Origin: an uncultured Ruminiclostridium sp.
Lineage (GTDB): Bacteria > Bacillota > Clostridia > Oscillospirales > Ruminococcaceae
Length of the DNA stretch: 64,000 bases
Assembly: GCA_947623915.1 (NCBI GenBank)
Contig: CANQIB010000003.1
Location: 62,001 to 126,000 of the forward strand
Direction of reading: 5' to 3'
The notes under the pieces are model-generated. The model was given only the letters and a program-made list of their open reading frames with translations, did no database searches and was not told the origin of the DNA. Below, piece after piece: positions 40,559-48,079 of the stretch (its first letter is position 1; each line of letters starts with the position of its first letter). The position numbers and the translations under genes were made by a program.

Positions 40559-40589
40559 AAAAATACCCTGCCGTATTTCTACGACAGGG
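40559..40589 (-). terminator. Terminator of the helicase/ATPase unit
   Basis: 10-bp stem with one G-U pair (40566-40575 with 40580-40589), TTTC/GAAA loop, followed on the minus strand by TATTTTTG. It lies about 37 bp after the ATPase stop and separates this unit from mraZ. Confidence 0.85.
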
Positions 40590-40625
40590 TGATAAAATAT
40601 TTTAAACAAGTGGCTTTGCTTTTTC

Positions 40626-43600
40626 TTACTCGCTTTCGGAAAGGTCAAGCACTCTGACCGTCTCTTCCTCCGACTGAGGCTCGAACGTATCTTCCTCCGC
40701 CGCTTTGAACGCCGTGGGGGATAGATCCGCCTCGGTGTTGTCCGCTATCCACTTTGCCGCCATGAGCGGCGACAGCACGGTGTTTATCGACATAAGCTCG
40801 CTTTCGGTGGAGCTTAACATTTCACTGTGTATGTTTTCCGAACCCGCTATATCGTAAGTCAGCTGGCAGCGGTACTTAATACTGCACAGCAAAAACTCCG
40901 GCGGTATCACCTCCACCTGACTTATCTCCTCCAGCCACAAAAACGGGCTCATGCCGCCTATGCTGACGTCCTCGATTATCCAGCCGCTGGACGCCGCCGC
41001 GTCGTCGGAACACATATAGAGCGAAAATCTGAAGCGGCGTTCGGATTCGTCCTTGAAAATGCCGACCTCAAAGCTCTTTACCACGCGGCTGTTTATTATC
41101 TGGGATTCGCGCGGGCAGCATTGACAGGTGCCGCCGTAACCGAACAGTCTGCCGTTTATGTCCTTGGCGAAATAGTTGCGGTATATCCCCGCGTTGTCTA
41201 TGCCGCGTATCTTTTCGTACTGCTCTTTCAGCCGCGTGAGTTCGCTTTGGGTGATATACGGCAGGGGCTTATAATAATAAGGTATCTGGTCCAAAAGCAC
41301 GCGGTTGGGCTCTTCGGTGCAGGAATAGTATCTTCCCAGCTTTCCGTCGTCCACGCCGGTGAGCAGATATTCGACATAGTGGGAAAACTCCGGCTTTTGG
41401 CAGCCGTCCTTTAGAACGACGTACTTTTCCGTCCGCGCCTCGTCCTCCTCGACGGGCACTACGGAGGTGTCCAAAACGCGCACGACGCGGTTTTCCTTAT
41501 CCACGAGCGCTATACGGGGTATTTTAAGGTCGGTGACGTAAAGTCTGGGCAGTATGCTGTCATAGCGTTTTGCGACCGCCTCCTCCGCGCTGAGCAGCTC
41601 GGTTATCTTCGCGCGGTCGAAAGAGTACCCCGCTTTGGAAACGGGAAAATCAAACAGCCTGCCGTTGAACATACCGCAGCTTATAAGCAGGTAAACGTCC
41701 CCCACTATCTCCAACAGATCGTTGCAGGTGACCTTTGACGGTATAAGGAATTGCATACCGTACGCGCTGAAACGGTACTTGTTGTTTATATCCAGCTGAA
41801 GTCCTATCTCCGTTCCCTCGCTCTTCATCTGGCGCAGGAAAGTCATAACGTCCTTGCCCTGCGTGTAGCTGTTCACCAAAAGCGTCAGAAATTCGTTCAG
41901 GACATGGTTGTTTTCAAATCGGTCGGCGTGCGCCGCGATAAAATCATAGGTGCGTTTCAGATTGTTCACCGTCATTTTCGCAACGTCAAAGGTGAAACGG
42001 CTGGTGCGGCAGCGTACGTTTAGCTGATAGTACCGCATGGATATACCGTAGCTGTTGCCGAAAATATCGTCGAACAGCGTGACCGCGCCTATCAGAGAAT
42101 CATCGTCGGCGACCGAGCCGTCCTTAACGTAATCTCCCAGCTTGATGCTGACCACGCTGCGAAATCCTACGCTCAGCCCATAATCCTTTATCGCGGGATT
42201 TTTATCGCTGTCTATCCTATAGCTTTTATCGCCGAAACGGAATATATAGGAAAATTCGCGGCCGCGCTCTCCCGTTTCGGGGTTTTCCCACTCGTAAGCG
42301 GCGGACAGCACGACGTTTTCAAAATTTGCGGTCTCCTTGCGCAGCATCATTATCCTGCTTTGTATGCACTCGTCGAACGCCGCCCCCGATTCGTGCATAG
42401 CATAGGGGATATCCGGCTCGTCGTTGTAAAATCCTATCTGACACAGCTCGGAATACGGTATCGGCGTACCTCCGGGCGGGCAAAGCGAGATATTGCTCTG
42501 GAATTTGTCATCCAGCCTGTTCGCCATGGGGCTGGTCTGTATGAAATTGGCAAAAAACTCAAAAACATAGTGTTTCGGACGCAGATACAGCTTGTCGGAG
42601 CTGCTGCGCTTTGCTATCTCCAGCACGAAATACCGAGAATATTTATCGCACATATCGCGAAGATCGCCGGATATAGCCTGCGCGACCTCCTCCTCACATT
42701 CGTGCTTTATCCCCGTTCTGTGGGAGGTTATCAGCGAATTGGGGACGCTTATGAAAAACGCGGACAGCTTTTGATTGACGAACTGCTCGCCGGTGGAGTT
42801 TATCAGTCCCGTAAGCTCGTATGTCGAAAAATAATTGTACCTGTCAAGTATCACCCTCGCCATATCCGCTCTGCGGGCGGAGGATACCGCAAAGGGTATA
42901 AGATACACATATCCCGCCGCTTCATGCCAGATAAAGTCGATGACGCTTTTTCCGTTGTGGGAAAAACGTATCAGCGGGTCACCCTCGGAATCGCCGCTGC
43001 CGCGGCGGCTGATCCTGTATACCGCAAACGGCTTGCCGCCCTGCGCCGCGGTAACGGTTATCGTTCTGGAAACGGCTTCGCATTCGTCGTATCTGCCCGG
43101 CAGCTTTTTGCGGATAAACGCAAAGCACAGCTCCACAAGGTTGATGTATTTTCCTTTTTTCGCGGTAAGCGTCAAAAGGTTTTCCTTTATCGCCTCGGCT
43201 TCCTCACGGGAAACGCAAAAACGTATCTCCGTACCTTGATACAGCGGAGCGGAAAGGTCCAGCTCGCGCAGCAAAAGCACCCCGTCGTCGTTTATCATGC
43301 GGAACGTGAAGTTGCCGGAACGCAGGGTGAACCATTCTACATTCATGAAAACGCTCTTCGCGCCCACGCCGAAACGCCCCTCGCGGGTGGTATCGCCGTC
43401 GCTCCTGCCTATACTGAGATAATACAAAAGCTGTTCGAGCGTAAAGCCGTCCTCGTTGTAGTTCAGCTTTATAACTCCGTTATCCTCAAAATCTATCGTG
43501 AGCTTCATGTCATTTTCGGAATAATAGCAGCCGAACGCGTTTTGCAAAAGCTCGCGCAGTATGGATTCCTTGGGGTAATCGCTCACCGAAAGAGAGGTGT

Positions 43601-43790
43601 TGTACGGATTTCTGTCCGAATAAACGTTGTTGAAATAATCCTTGAACGGTGTGACGTCCGCCTTTTCGTGATACAGCAGCCGCTGCATCTCGCTCAGGGA
43701 CTCGTCCAACAGCTCACGGTTGTTTTTCGCGTGCGCATGGAAAAAATCGCCGATAAGCGCGGATATTTCACTGCTCTGTCCCGACGGCAT
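40626..43790 (-). CDS. Sacsin/HSP90-like (GHKL) ATPase, large protein of unknown function
   Basis: 1054 aa; ATG 43790, one base after the partner's stop, with AGGGGTG upstream. N-terminal GHKL domain: N-box RELLQNAFGCYY (about 79-90), NYNEDGFTLEQLLYYLSIGRS (about 110-130, in two parts), and lid/G2 box GRFGVGAKSVF (138-148). The spacing and the ELLQNA/NVGRS-like pattern match sacsin-type HSP90 domains rather than MutL or histidine kinases. The rest (about 300-1050) has no family I recognise; a CQCC (889-892) and later single Cys could bind metal. It ends in an acidic tail. Pairs with the helicase-like protein encoded just upstream; together they form a unit with their own promoter and terminator. 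Confidence 0.85.
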   Translation of the reverse strand: MPSGQSSEISALIGDFFHAHAKNNRELLDESLSEMQRLLYHEKADVTPFKDYFNNVYSDRNPYNTSLSVSDYPKESILRELLQNAFGCYYSENDMKLTIDFEDNGVIKLNYNEDGFTLEQLLYYLSIGRSDGDTTREGRFGVGAKSVFMNVEWFTLRSGNFTFRMINDDGVLLLRELDLSAPLYQGTEIRFCVSREEAEAIKENLLTLTAKKGKYINLVELCFAFIRKKLPGRYDECEAVSRTITVTAAQGGKPFAVYRISRRGSGDSEGDPLIRFSHNGKSVIDFIWHEAAGYVYLIPFAVSSARRADMARVILDRYNYFSTYELTGLINSTGEQFVNQKLSAFFISVPNSLITSHRTGIKHECEEEVAQAISGDLRDMCDKYSRYFVLEIAKRSSSDKLYLRPKHYVFEFFANFIQTSPMANRLDDKFQSNISLCPPGGTPIPYSELCQIGFYNDEPDIPYAMHESGAAFDECIQSRIMMLRKETANFENVVLSAAYEWENPETGERGREFSYIFRFGDKSYRIDSDKNPAIKDYGLSVGFRSVVSIKLGDYVKDGSVADDDSLIGAVTLFDDIFGNSYGISMRYYQLNVRCRTSRFTFDVAKMTVNNLKRTYDFIAAHADRFENNHVLNEFLTLLVNSYTQGKDVMTFLRQMKSEGTEIGLQLDINNKYRFSAYGMQFLIPSKVTCNDLLEIVGDVYLLISCGMFNGRLFDFPVSKAGYSFDRAKITELLSAEEAVAKRYDSILPRLYVTDLKIPRIALVDKENRVVRVLDTSVVPVEEDEARTEKYVVLKDGCQKPEFSHYVEYLLTGVDDGKLGRYYSCTEEPNRVLLDQIPYYYKPLPYITQSELTRLKEQYEKIRGIDNAGIYRNYFAKDINGRLFGYGGTCQCCPRESQIINSRVVKSFEVGIFKDESERRFRFSLYMCSDDAAASSGWIIEDVSIGGMSPFLWLEEISQVEVIPPEFLLCSIKYRCQLTYDIAGSENIHSEMLSSTESELMSINTVLSPLMAAKWIADNTEADLSPTAFKAAEEDTFEPQSEEETVRVLDLSESE

Positions 43791-43791
43791 C

Positions 43792-45774
43792 TCACATCAC
43801 CCCTTCGTTGTATTTTTTCATAAATTCCTTAAACCCTTCCTGTATGATATACTCATCGGAAAGGTATCTCCAAGTATTCAGCAGCACCGGCATTTTAAGT
43901 CCGTCCGGCAGCGTATTTACACATTCTCTCAGCCGCGCGTCGCGGTTTTCTCCGTAAAAATCCGCGAGGGATCTTTTTGCGGCTTTCAGCCCCCTGTCAA
44001 GCTCGCTGTCGGCAAGGCTCTCGATGTATTCCTCGCCCTTTTCGCGGTCATAGCATTGCGCGAGCGTCTGACGGTCCACCGCCGCTATACGCCCCTCGTC
44101 GTCGAGATACAGCAGCGTGTTGCGGAATTTTTCAAATATCGGTCTTAACACCGATACCAAGCGACCGAGGTCGCGCGTGCCCTCGGTCACTACCGACTCG
44201 ATTCCCAGCGCGCGGGCAAGGCGGCTCAGCTTTGCCTTTACATACGCTATCACGCTTGACGCCTCCGTGAAACGCACCGATGCGGGAACGGCAAAGTCGC
44301 TCCTGAATTTCAGTATCATGTCGCTGCCGGTAAAACGGTCGGCGTAAGCTATTATGCTCATCAGCTCAAAAATGCAGCGCGCCGTATATTCCGCCGCCTG
44401 CGGCAGATCGAACAATACGTTGCGCCCCGGCACCTGCGGCATAAGTCCGTCGTATATGCTGCCGTACAGCACCTTTGAAAGCATACGCCCGTCGAAAATG
44501 CCGTTGTCGTCCGAAAACAGGATAAACTCCCGCTCGCCGCTGCGCCCGTGCCTTGCCGCACGAAGCTCCAGCGCCGTCGGGTCGCTCGGCAGCTCGTAAT
44601 TGAAAATATGGGTGTAGCCCTTTACGGAATCGCCCGACAGCCCCGCCGAATCCACGGTTATAAATATCCTGTCGTTCGAGATTTGATCCATGCGCTCAAA
44701 GTCCGTGCCTATATTGTCGGTATTGTACACGCCGCCGCGCTCCACTCTGATAAGCCCCGTGTTCTTGGAATAAAGAGCGTATACCACCTTTGAAAGGTAA
44801 TTCGCGGTGAGCGGCGATACGCAGTATACGGCGACACGCCCGTCGGTGGTGCGTATTATCTCGTCCAGCCTGTCAAGAAAGCAGTCCAGCTTTTTATCGG
44901 CGCGGCGCAGCTCGTTTACGTCCCTTACCGTGTAAGAGGGCTTGACATACAGTCGGGTTATCTCGGTTGCGTATTCCTCAAACAGGTTTCCGCCCGAAGT
45001 GTACGCGGGCATTCCGGTCTTGAGGTCGGTGAGCTTTCTCAACCCGTTAAGATAGGACGGCTCGAACGCGTATCTCAGCACGGTGACGTTTCTCGCGGTC
45101 TCGCCCCGATATACCTCCGCCTCGTAATTCCTCGTCAAAGGTGCGTCATGGTTAAAGCGTATGCAGTCCGTGTCTATTTTAGCCGTCATCGCCGCTTGGG
45201 CAACGACCTCGTCCGCAAGCATTGCCGCCGCTGTGCGGTTGAGCGCCTGCAAATCGCCGTTTTTCCCCACGGGAAACGGCGCATAGATAAGCAGCTTGTC
45301 CGTCTTTATCTTCAGTTTGCCGGTGTAAAGCTCCTCGTTTATGCCGTCGACGGAAAGTCCCGCGTCTATCATCACGAGATCCCACACTATCTTGTCGCAG
45401 GCGTGTTTAAGCACGCCGCTGCCGCCCGACAGCGCTCTTTCCGAAACTATGTAGAAGTTGGAGCCGTCGGGTGAAAAATATTCTATCGTTCCCTCTGAGG
45501 AGGTTATCATCTTGAAATCCGTTCCGCAGCCCTTTATCAGCTCGCTGTAGCGGCTGTACATCAGGTTGGCAGGGCAAATAAGCATCATGTTCGGAGCGTC
45601 TTTTTCCAGCAACCTGTCCAAAACGGCAAGCTGAGCGGTTTTTGAGAAATCGGAGCCGTACTCGTCCAGAACAAAGCAAAACCCGAAACGGCGCAGCCTG
45701 TCATTACAGGAACGGCTCACCGGATCGGTGTTTCTTCCGTGGTACAATATCCATTTTATCTCGTCGGTATTCAT
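43792..45774 (-). CDS. Degenerate SNF2/RapA-like superfamily 2 helicase
   Basis: 660 aa; ATG 45774 with GGAGG ten bases upstream. N-lobe: FVLDEYGSDFSKTAQLAV (about 34-51) stands where DEVGLGKT lies in RapA, with Lys-Thr kept but the loop two residues longer; MLICPANLMYSRY (motif Ia); WDLVMIDAGLSV (131-142), where the DEAH Glu is replaced; KLLIYAPFPVGKNG as motif III. C-lobe (about 310-430): FITVDSAGLSGDSVKGYTH as motif V and ALELRAARHGRSGE as motif VI, with all three Arg of the RapA-like pattern retained. So the fold is kept but ATP turnover is doubtful. The last 230 residues are unassigned. It heads the two-gene unit with the GHKL ATPase. Confidence 0.75.
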   Translation of the reverse strand: MNTDEIKWILYHGRNTDPVSRSCNDRLRRFGFCFVLDEYGSDFSKTAQLAVLDRLLEKDAPNMMLICPANLMYSRYSELIKGCGTDFKMITSSEGTIEYFSPDGSNFYIVSERALSGGSGVLKHACDKIVWDLVMIDAGLSVDGINEELYTGKLKIKTDKLLIYAPFPVGKNGDLQALNRTAAAMLADEVVAQAAMTAKIDTDCIRFNHDAPLTRNYEAEVYRGETARNVTVLRYAFEPSYLNGLRKLTDLKTGMPAYTSGGNLFEEYATEITRLYVKPSYTVRDVNELRRADKKLDCFLDRLDEIIRTTDGRVAVYCVSPLTANYLSKVVYALYSKNTGLIRVERGGVYNTDNIGTDFERMDQISNDRIFITVDSAGLSGDSVKGYTHIFNYELPSDPTALELRAARHGRSGEREFILFSDDNGIFDGRMLSKVLYGSIYDGLMPQVPGRNVLFDLPQAAEYTARCIFELMSIIAYADRFTGSDMILKFRSDFAVPASVRFTEASSVIAYVKAKLSRLARALGIESVVTEGTRDLGRLVSVLRPIFEKFRNTLLYLDDEGRIAAVDRQTLAQCYDREKGEEYIESLADSELDRGLKAAKRSLADFYGENRDARLRECVNTLPDGLKMPVLLNTWRYLSDEYIIQEGFKEFMKKYNEGVM

Positions 45775-45816: not shown

Positions 45817-45845
45817 ATTATAATACTTTTTTCACTTTTTTACAA
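45817..45845 (-). promoter_or_regulatory. Promoter of the helicase/ATPase pair
   Basis: Minus strand TTGTAA (45840-45845), 17 bp, TATAAT (45817-45822), about 40 bp before the helicase-like ATG. Further upstream (45846-45988) is AT-rich with a GGCG/CGCC hairpin near 45916-45930 and nothing coding. Confidence 0.82.
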
Positions 45846-47113: not shown

Positions 47114-48079
47114 ATGGGAATCAAGGATAATTTTTCACAGGCGATGAAGGATTTTATAAATCCGCAGTCCACCCCCTCCGTTCCTGCCGCTGACCCTCAG
47201 GAAAAAGACGTTACGGATTATATGCAGCAGACCGGCGAGTTCGACGCTGTAGCTCCGACGGCTCAGCAAAATAACTCCGACGCTCCGACTCAGGATATGC
47301 AGGCGGCAAACGCCGCCGCAGCGCAGGAGGCTGCAAGACAGGCGGCGGCTCAGGAGGCCGCAAGACAAGCCGCGCAGGAGGCCGCTAGGCAGGAAGCTGC
47401 AAGGCAAGAAGCCGCTAGGCAGGAAGCCGCTAGGCAAGAAGCCGCTAGGCAAGAAGCCGCTAGACAGGAGGCGGCAAGGCAGGCCGCAGCGCAGGAGGCT
47501 GCAAGACAGGCGGCAGCTCAAGAGGCGGCAAGACAGGCTGCGGCTCAAGAGGCTGCAAGAAAAGCGGCGGCACAGGAGGCGGCAAGAAAAGCGGCTCTGC
47601 AAGCACAACAGCGCCCCGAAACCACCATTATCTCCAAAAATACTCTCATAGACGGAAATATCCGCTCGTTCGCAAATATGCAGATAGATGGGAATATCAA
47701 GGGCAACGTTGAAACCACCAAGAACATCAGCGTGAACGGCAAGATCGTCGGAAACATCACCTGCGACAACGCCAAACTCAACGCCTCGTCGATACAGGGC
47801 AACATCACGCTTAAAGGTCAGGTGCTTATGGCGAGCGACTCTATGCTGATAGGCGACCTTTCCTCTCAGCTTGCCAGCCTTAACGGCAAGATAAAGGGAA
47901 ATATCAGCATTTCCGGAAAGGTGCAGCTCGATAAAGATTCCGTGATATTCGGCGATATAAAGGCAAGCTCCATATCCATCTCGGACGGAGCGGTGGTACA
48001 GGGTTATGTAAGCACCACCTATCTTTCCAACGACGAGCGCAGCAACATTTTCCCCGAAAGCATCGCGATAGGCGAATGA
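47114..48079 (+). CDS. Bactofilin with long Ala/Arg/Gln-rich repeat segment
   Basis: Nucleotide-free polymer-forming cytoskeletal protein with a right-handed beta-helix. 321 aa. Residues 1-70 are polar (IKDNFSQAMKDFINPQ); about 71-165 is an Ala-Arg-Gln-Glu low-complexity repeat, predicted to be a long charged helix; about 170-320 is the bactofilin core (TIISKNTLIDGNIRSFANMQ, DGNIKGNVETTKNISVNGKI, ISISDGAVVQGYV). Between a wall deacetylase and an HD protein, it fits the known bactofilin link to wall remodelling. ATG 47114 with AAAGGAATC upstream. Confidence 0.9.
   Translation: MGIKDNFSQAMKDFINPQSTPSVPAADPQEKDVTDYMQQTGEFDAVAPTAQQNNSDAPTQDMQAANAAAAQEAARQAAAQEAARQAAQEAARQEAARQEAARQEAARQEAARQEAARQEAARQAAAQEAARQAAAQEAARQAAAQEAARKAAAQEAARKAALQAQQRPETTIISKNTLIDGNIRSFANMQIDGNIKGNVETTKNISVNGKIVGNITCDNAKLNASSIQGNITLKGQVLMASDSMLIGDLSSQLASLNGKIKGNISISGKVQLDKDSVIFGDIKASSISISDGAVVQGYVSTTYLSNDERSNIFPESIAIGE
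47321..47610 (+). repeat. In-frame 15-bp repeat tract within the bactofilin gene
   Basis: Units encoding A-A-R-Q-E repeat in tandem, for example GCCGCTAGGCAAGAA and near copies around 47385-47475, with longer A-A-Q-E-A-A-R-Q-A variants either side. Codons vary between units in the flanks but are nearly identical in the middle, pointing to recent expansion by slippage or unequal exchange. Confidence 0.8.

Follow-up and report, generated by a model that had tools for sequence, protein, structure and literature searches.

A degenerate SNF2-like protein and a GHKL ATPase form a conserved gene pair that is near-core in two clostridial genera

Background

Does a helicase-like gene that adjoins a GHKL ATPase gene in a gut clostridium belong to a mobile anti-virus system or to the settled machinery of the cell? 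The question is raised by a 64,000-nucleotide stretch of DNA (the window) from an uncultured Ruminiclostridium sp. (assembly GCA_947623915.1, contig CANQIB010000003.1, positions 62,001 to 126,000), in which a gene for a degenerate SNF2/RapA-like helicase precedes one for a sacsin/HSP90-like GHKL protein. We report that the two make up a genuine two-gene unit, which is near-core in two genera, and that the pair looks like a settled cellular machine of some gut clostridia and not like a mobile anti-virus system.

GHKL-helicase modules of MORC and paraMORC proteins were described in a paper of which Iyer is reportedly an author. According to the accessible part of it, these GHKL-superfamily II (SFII) helicase modules sit in restriction-modification (R-M) operons, one operon class having SWI2/SNF2 helicases, and are proposed to loop DNA; the defence-type modules are described as laterally mobile (PMC2292703). 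In excerpts from two other papers, inactive and fast-evolving Swi2/Snf2 domains in PglZ and DndH are proposed to be sensors of invading nucleic acid (PMC12839542), and one Shedu protein that contains a GHKL domain acts against phages (PMC12137116). We found no description of a pair of the type present in the window in the open-licence literature.

Results

Conservation of the gene pair

Both genes are on the minus strand and, as an earlier reading made from the sequence alone had stated, a single base (position 43791) is the only spacer between the two open reading frames (ORFs; Table 1). A scan of named genome contigs gave 103 confirmed GHKL relatives, of which 80 were kept; by title most of these records are from uncultured Ruminiclostridium, Oscillospiraceae and other Clostridia. 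The helicase gene lies directly upstream of the GHKL gene in 75 of the 80 loci, while in the remaining five the contig stops inside the GHKL gene (four) or 112 bases before it (one). The gap between the two genes has a median of 1 base and ranges from -125 to +144 bases (72 loci, starts called by script). With this pairing, and with the catalytic residues of the GHKL partner kept (see below), the proposed two-gene unit of degenerate helicase and GHKL protein stands.

An even sample of the order (295 genomes) yielded a near-full-length helicase in ten genomes and the GHKL gene in the same ten; an eleventh match of the helicase, in G217, turned out to be some other SNF2 protein. At the scale of the family, the GHKL profile matches 17 of 396 genomes, two of them weakly, in 5 of 126 genera. 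Within the genus of the window, 67 of 71 genomes (39/41 of high quality) have a match to the helicase profile; one match, in a genome that is not of high quality (G706), is a different helicase, so that 66 of the 71 genomes carry a helicase of this family. In a second genus 40 of 43 genomes match, including all 27 of high quality, and several genomes in both genera have additional weak or split matches to the helicase profile. Neither gene was detected in G759, G669 and G685 (86, 83 and 69% complete, respectively). The sequence-only reading had considered that the pair might be fixed at this locus with a known housekeeping role; fixation is indeed seen in the two genera, but the locus varies and no known role is attached to it.

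The plasmid collection held no copy of the pair, and a pattern scan of IMG/VR for the pair family (166 stretches) gave no relative. One record of the phage collection has it (MT835670.1, 157-8242, titled 'UNVERIFIED: Bacteriophage sp.'; our locus L139); since this record also has the HD, bactofilin and deacetylase neighbours of the window it is likely a misfiled bacterial contig.

Pairwise distances of the helicase-like and the GHKL proteins are correlated (Pearson 0.98, Spearman 0.89; 70 loci), which indicates shared history, not contact. Moreover, the pair distances track those of five neighbourhood marker proteins (Spearman 0.38 to 0.85; 12 to 16 loci), and the median ratio of nonsynonymous to synonymous substitutions (dN/dS) of the two genes is 0.084 (48 pairs) and 0.081 (163 pairs), with dS up to 1.5 allowed. 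Together these data argue for vertical inheritance under constraint. The helicase-like protein diverges faster, with a mean p-distance of 0.63 vs 0.49 for the GHKL protein.

The SNF2-like protein

The AlphaFold2 model of the helicase-like protein resembles SNF2/RapA, with RapA as the top Foldseek match (E 4.1e-13, identity 12-14%). A PDB search by sequence returned a single weak match, to CshA (E 0.014), and Pfam gave no match above cut-off for either protein of the pair. The altered Walker A loop and the replacement of DExH by IDAGLS, both noticed previously, were confirmed. Motif counts were made on the 73 partners of at least 600 amino acids (aa) out of 75 with an ORF; the other two, L049 and L062, end at a contig edge. 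GxGK[ST] is retained in nine of the 73 and the Glu after the motif II Asp in 26, the two together in none (motif I of L051 is masked by N), and motif III ([ST]AT) was found in none within the stretch tested. One relative, L106, reads DEEH at motif II, while the protein of the window is without both GxGK[ST] and the motif II Glu. In a GHKL tree (FastTree, 81 rows, several long branches) the rows with GKT and those with the motif II Glu form separate clades, corresponding to at least six and at least two changes, respectively. The earlier statement that the motif VI arginines are kept holds for the first of them, R405, which is invariant in all rows of the alignment (A5), but the later ones vary among the relatives. 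Judged from these sequences the helicase half looks dead as an ATPase. A conserved, family-specific GGNLFEEY stretch is a candidate partner-binding patch.

Among divergent members the helicase half is shrunken or undetected. It measures 553 aa in G712, 437 aa in G743 and 438 aa in G707, next to GHKL proteins of 1036, 1016 and 1041 aa. G742 (95% complete) has a lone GHKL gene (973 aa; L140, G742:C37, 7881-10802), and no helicase was found genome-wide, nor in the surrounding 19 kb when the search was relaxed; G741 (72% complete) has a GHKL protein of 934 aa and no helicase match, only about 0.5 kb of contig preceding the GHKL gene. When aligned, these five GHKL proteins keep the N-box Glu/Asn, YNE, the G-box glycines and Arg 358, and that the helicase is reduced or undetected while these residues are kept marks it as the more expendable half. 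Of the GHKL proteins in this alignment, L121 and L122 have Ser at G115, and in G742 the candidate metal site described below is broken. A further genome, G713 (96% complete), has a C-terminal GHKL remnant of 496 codons that adjoins mraZ (L141, G713:C16, 3162-4652) and no helicase match.

The GHKL protein

Over residues ~55-440 the AlphaFold2 model of the GHKL protein resembles HSP90, MutL, GyrB and MORC2. The ELLQNA, NEDGFT and GRFGVGAKSV motifs are present as had been reported, and E80, N84, Y111-N112-E113, G138, G141, G143, K145 and R358 are invariant in 26/26 aligned rows; we take R358 to be the HSP90-type catalytic Arg and assume catalytic roles for E80 and N84. Three GHKL ATPase patterns occur in 73, 72 and 74 of 74 proteins. 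L091 is without two of them because its contig begins within the gene, and L041 reads YNEDGI. The GHKL protein looks active as an ATPase and is likely to supply the ATP turnover of the pair. Near the C-terminus, C889, C892 and C927 are invariant (26/26) and residue 930 (41001-41003) is Asp in 22 rows and His in four, likely forming a metal site. Two matches to F-box proteins in the PDB search by sequence were weak and are taken as chance. A PF13589 search of the genome itself matched five other GHKL genes and not that of the window.

Comparison with named systems

The pair matches no named system that we tested, an outcome that the sequence-only reading had left to such searches. PADLOC gave only weak partial matches for the window pair. 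TmtA, presumably the Tiamat protein, matches GHKL residues 80-169 with 33 bits, but over positions 47-138 (92) of a 1302-position model and not over its full length. DISARM DrmD/DrmA match the second helicase lobe weakly (20 to 24 bits), DrmD with 20.3 bits vs an NCBIfam cut-off of 610. Mza is absent from the PADLOC results for the pair; which Mza models PADLOC includes was not checked. Sacsin models score below their curated cut-offs (Pfam SACS 12.5 vs 32.8; NCBIfam P_loop_sacsin 27 vs 50). The modelled fold of the N-terminal and middle domains is like that of HSP90/HtpG. The helicase-like protein, at the low identity given above, differs from RapA in being without working ATPase motifs.

Compared with the MORC/paraMORC-SFII modules, the window GHKL protein has an S5/transducer-type module in the modelled fold and its catalytic motifs kept, and an SF2 helicase gene by fold adjoins it, though with its motifs lost. 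In contrast, the published MORC signature GhXhhpXXRhl, searched as a regular expression, is absent from the window protein, from its relatives (0/77) and from the intact proteins described below (0/3). Moreover, unlike the R-M operons, the locus in the window shows no methylase or nuclease gene next to the pair, and unlike the laterally mobile modules it is vertically inherited and near-core with a helicase that looks dead.

Intact counterparts

A pair with an intact SNF2 helicase directly before a sacsin-like GHKL protein of 1081-1174 aa was found in three places: in two genomes of the family of the window (L116, 6062-11862; L117, 5909-12242) and on the Lysinibacillus capsici plasmid pFN9B (L127, 9392-15075; NZ_CP106864.1, 27122-51877). 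It shares with the window pair the gene order, the sizes, the SNF2 core, the sacsin-like GHKL protein and a C-terminal CxxC. It differs in its complete helicase motifs (GTGKT/GTGKS, DECH/DEAH, LTATP and QRxGRxxR), in having been found in these three places only and in being plasmid-borne at one of them, where UvrD, PD-(D/E)XK proteins, an Eco57I-type methylase and an integrase surround it. L117 is by inspection near ParB/Rep-like ORFs, and G604 carries both an intact (C33) and a degenerate (C9) pair. On L116 and L117 PADLOC gave only partial matches (best for the helicase HmaA, 50 bits; for the GHKL protein TmtA, 41 bits). We consider the intact pair a candidate unnamed defence pair. The earlier statement that such pairs recur in defence is borne out by this one plasmid locus of the intact pair and by the GHKL-SFII modules in the accessible text (PMC2292703), but does not extend to the family of the window.

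Profiles of the degenerate and intact helicases match with E 2.2e-19 over 434 columns, one SNF2 control (encoded at L016/L119 and first picked up as a weak match of the window helicase) giving 6.6e-9 over 125 columns; with a 41-row profile of the degenerate family the match to the intact profile reaches 2.9e-22. The N-terminal parts of the two GHKL families match with E 6.8e-11, and GHKL controls other than an HtpG-like one score weaker.

The intact pair is rare in what we searched. The plasmid collection gave the Lysinibacillus record and two archaeal records in which the match covered just 14% of the helicase; in the phage collection neither protein matched, and in IMG/VR the GHKL protein gave nothing and the helicase three weak matches. 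A single GHKL query against 391 genomes of the class and a helicase profile against 186 genomes (E 1e-20) found none, and as no known positive was included both are uninformative. A GHKL profile run on 299 genomes of the phylum recovered the window GHKL protein (3e-6) and one in G1323 (4.4e-4), beside which no SNF2 gene was seen on inspection of the ORF list. L118 (G460), an HtpG-like protein, was dropped.

Features of the locus

Table 1. Features of the helicase-GHKL locus in window coordinates.
Feature	Position	Strand	Basis or remark
Helicase-like gene, 660 aa, SNF2/RapA-like fold, ATPase motifs apparently not working	43792..45774	-	ORF, AlphaFold2 model, alignment
Two RecA-like lobes, residues ~5-459 of the helicase-like protein	44398..45762	-	
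Degenerate Walker A DEYGSDFSKT, residues 37-46 (intact counterparts DEVGTGKT/DEVGTGKS)	45637..45666	-	
Degenerate motif II MIDAGLS, residues 134-140 (intact counterparts IDECH/VDEAH)	45355..45375	-	
GGNLFEEY, residues 261-268, conserved, family-specific	44971..44994	-	
Motif V-VI remnant, residues 386-414	44533..44619	-	R405 invariant 41/41
GHKL ATPase gene, 1054 aa, sacsin/HSP90/MutL-like N-terminal half	40626..43790	-	ORF, model
GHKL and transducer-like module, residues ~55-440	42471..43628	-	Model, alignment
C-terminal CxxC...CxxD/H, residues 889-930	41001..41126	-	Alignment A6, 26 rows
Promoter-like TTGTAA-17-TATAAT	45817..45845	-	10/12 consensus match, 5' of the helicase-like gene
Intrinsic-terminator-like hairpin, 11 pairs	40565..40590	-	3' of the GHKL gene

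The promoter and terminator assigned to the pair by the sequence-only reading were both recovered (Table 1). Such promoter sites number 13 in the window vs 8.3 +/- 2.9 in shuffles, so that the match by itself is little proof; the same TTGTAA...TATAAT pair is, however, upstream in seven of eight hand-picked close-relative loci (the window counted), and in the eighth, L088, the called start truncates the upstream stretch and the -35 part is visible. Terminator-like hairpins number 15 vs 11.9 +/- 3.4. Base use is like that of the neighbours, again in agreement with the first reading: GC of the helicase-like and GHKL genes is 0.54 and 0.52 (eight neighbours 0.50-0.55) and GC at third codon positions (GC3) is 0.68 for both (0.59-0.71).

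In the window the pair is flanked by MraZ and MraW (mraZ/rsmH) genes downstream and by deacetylase, bactofilin and HD genes on the other side, and no nuclease, methylase or toxin gene was recognised in these flanks. Elsewhere the surroundings change (labels were assigned partly by inspection): among 69 loci the downstream gene is mraZ and/or rsmH in 15, rnfC-like in 16, ABC in three and unnamed in 35, and a constant position beside mraZ, which had been suggested as one outcome, is thus not what we see. Upstream, 41 of 62 loci fall in six labelled groups and 21 are unnamed. Where a neighbour could be given a name, it is a housekeeping gene; the names gpmI, tpiA, rnfC, thrS and ftsI/ftsL/mraY are our assumption. 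PADLOC, applied to 96 of the 161 proteins that represent the neighbour clusters (E 1e-10), matched seven families (mad3 in three proteins; dGTPase, SspA, DndA, two WYL models and Cas3c in one each), which we read as housekeeping look-alikes. The patchy, island-borne distribution of mobile defence systems is not seen among the high-quality genomes of the two genera, about half of the downstream genes being unnamed.

The bactofilin gene (47114-48079) has a long stretch of AARQ/AAQEAARQ-type repeats. An Rfam scan of the window gave zero matches at gathering score.

Discussion

The reading that we favour, at about an even level of confidence, is that the products of both genes form one complex in which a GHKL clamp is held by a dead SNF2 scaffold, the pair being a near-core relative of GHKL-SNF2 conflict modules that has been domesticated or retired. 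The GHKL protein would act as an ATP-driven (ATP-gated) dimerising clamp of the HSP90/MutL/MORC type, and the catalytically dead SNF2-like protein would serve as a platform that keeps this clamp at the target, most probably duplex DNA or else a machine bound to nucleic acid. Passed on vertically, the family would have gone to fixation as a near-core unit in a few clostridial genera, with a decaying helicase half and the GHKL protein as its conserved engine. A bolder version, which we put forward tentatively, is that a conflict module was domesticated in one clostridial lineage and became a core machine, a bacterial counterpart of MORC/SMCHD1-type clamps, the dead SNF2 protein being a loading platform that is now being lost in some species.

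Several observations weigh against the favoured reading. Across the family as a whole, few genera carry the pair. The GHKL model has a predicted template modelling (pTM) score of 0.54, which leaves the relative placement of its domains uncertain, and the unassigned part of this protein could hide an effector. The sequence link between the family and its intact counterpart lacks specificity: under the 41-row profile the SNF2 control scores 1.8e-12 over 372 columns vs 2.9e-12, 2e-16 and 3.8e-17 for the intact helicases taken singly, the HtpG-like control scores 4.8e-6 vs 1.9e-6 to 6.1e-6 for single intact GHKL proteins, and between the two GHKL families the matches of the middle and C-terminal parts fall short of significance (E 0.026 and 0.0035). 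Common ancestry of the pairs is thus plausible from their arrangement and not demonstrated. Finally, the faster divergence of the helicase also fits the sensor of an active defence system.

This last point keeps intrinsic immunity in play, i.e. a fixed but active anti-phage or anti-plasmid system in which the inactive SNF2 protein senses foreign nucleic acid and evolves fast while the GHKL protein responds. The proposed PglZ and DndH sensors (PMC12839542) and the anti-phage GHKL-domain Shedu protein (PMC12137116), as far as the excerpts go, provide precedents, and one intact counterpart is plasmid-borne, with an R-M methylase and an integrase in its vicinity. We nevertheless regard this as a possibility of rather low probability: fixation, ordinary neighbours and low dN/dS of both genes favour a settled cellular role, and neither the plasmid nor the IMG/VR searches, the window flanks nor the weak and partial PADLOC matches give the pair a defence context. 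A proteostasis module, with the HSP90/sacsin-like protein as chaperone, the helicase-fold protein as co-chaperone and proteins or ribonucleoproteins as clients, accords with the HSP90/HtpG-like fold and seems unlikely to us.

Two further explanations are very improbable. That the helicase-like protein is a motor still using ATP through altered motifs draws on the relatives that retain GxGK[ST] or the motif II Glu and on the DEEH of L106, which fits a loose DExH; yet no readable member combines the two motifs, motif III was found in none of them, the window protein retains neither GxGK[ST] nor the Glu, and shrunken helicases and helicase-less genomes exist. That the pair is a local regulator of the adjoining mraZ/division cluster, for which mraZ directly downstream in the window and in several relatives speaks, sits badly with a different downstream gene in 54 of 69 loci and with a promoter and terminator-like site of its own.

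Conclusions

The pair is a relative of GHKL-helicase modules that is fixed in two genera and under purifying selection, unlike the laterally mobile defence-type modules. In it the graded decay of one partner is visible, from a motif-dead helicase of 660 aa to none detected. The family thus offers a testable case of what a pseudo-helicase contributes to its ATPase partner, and of the way in which a core function may arise from a conflict system or a nucleic-acid clamp.

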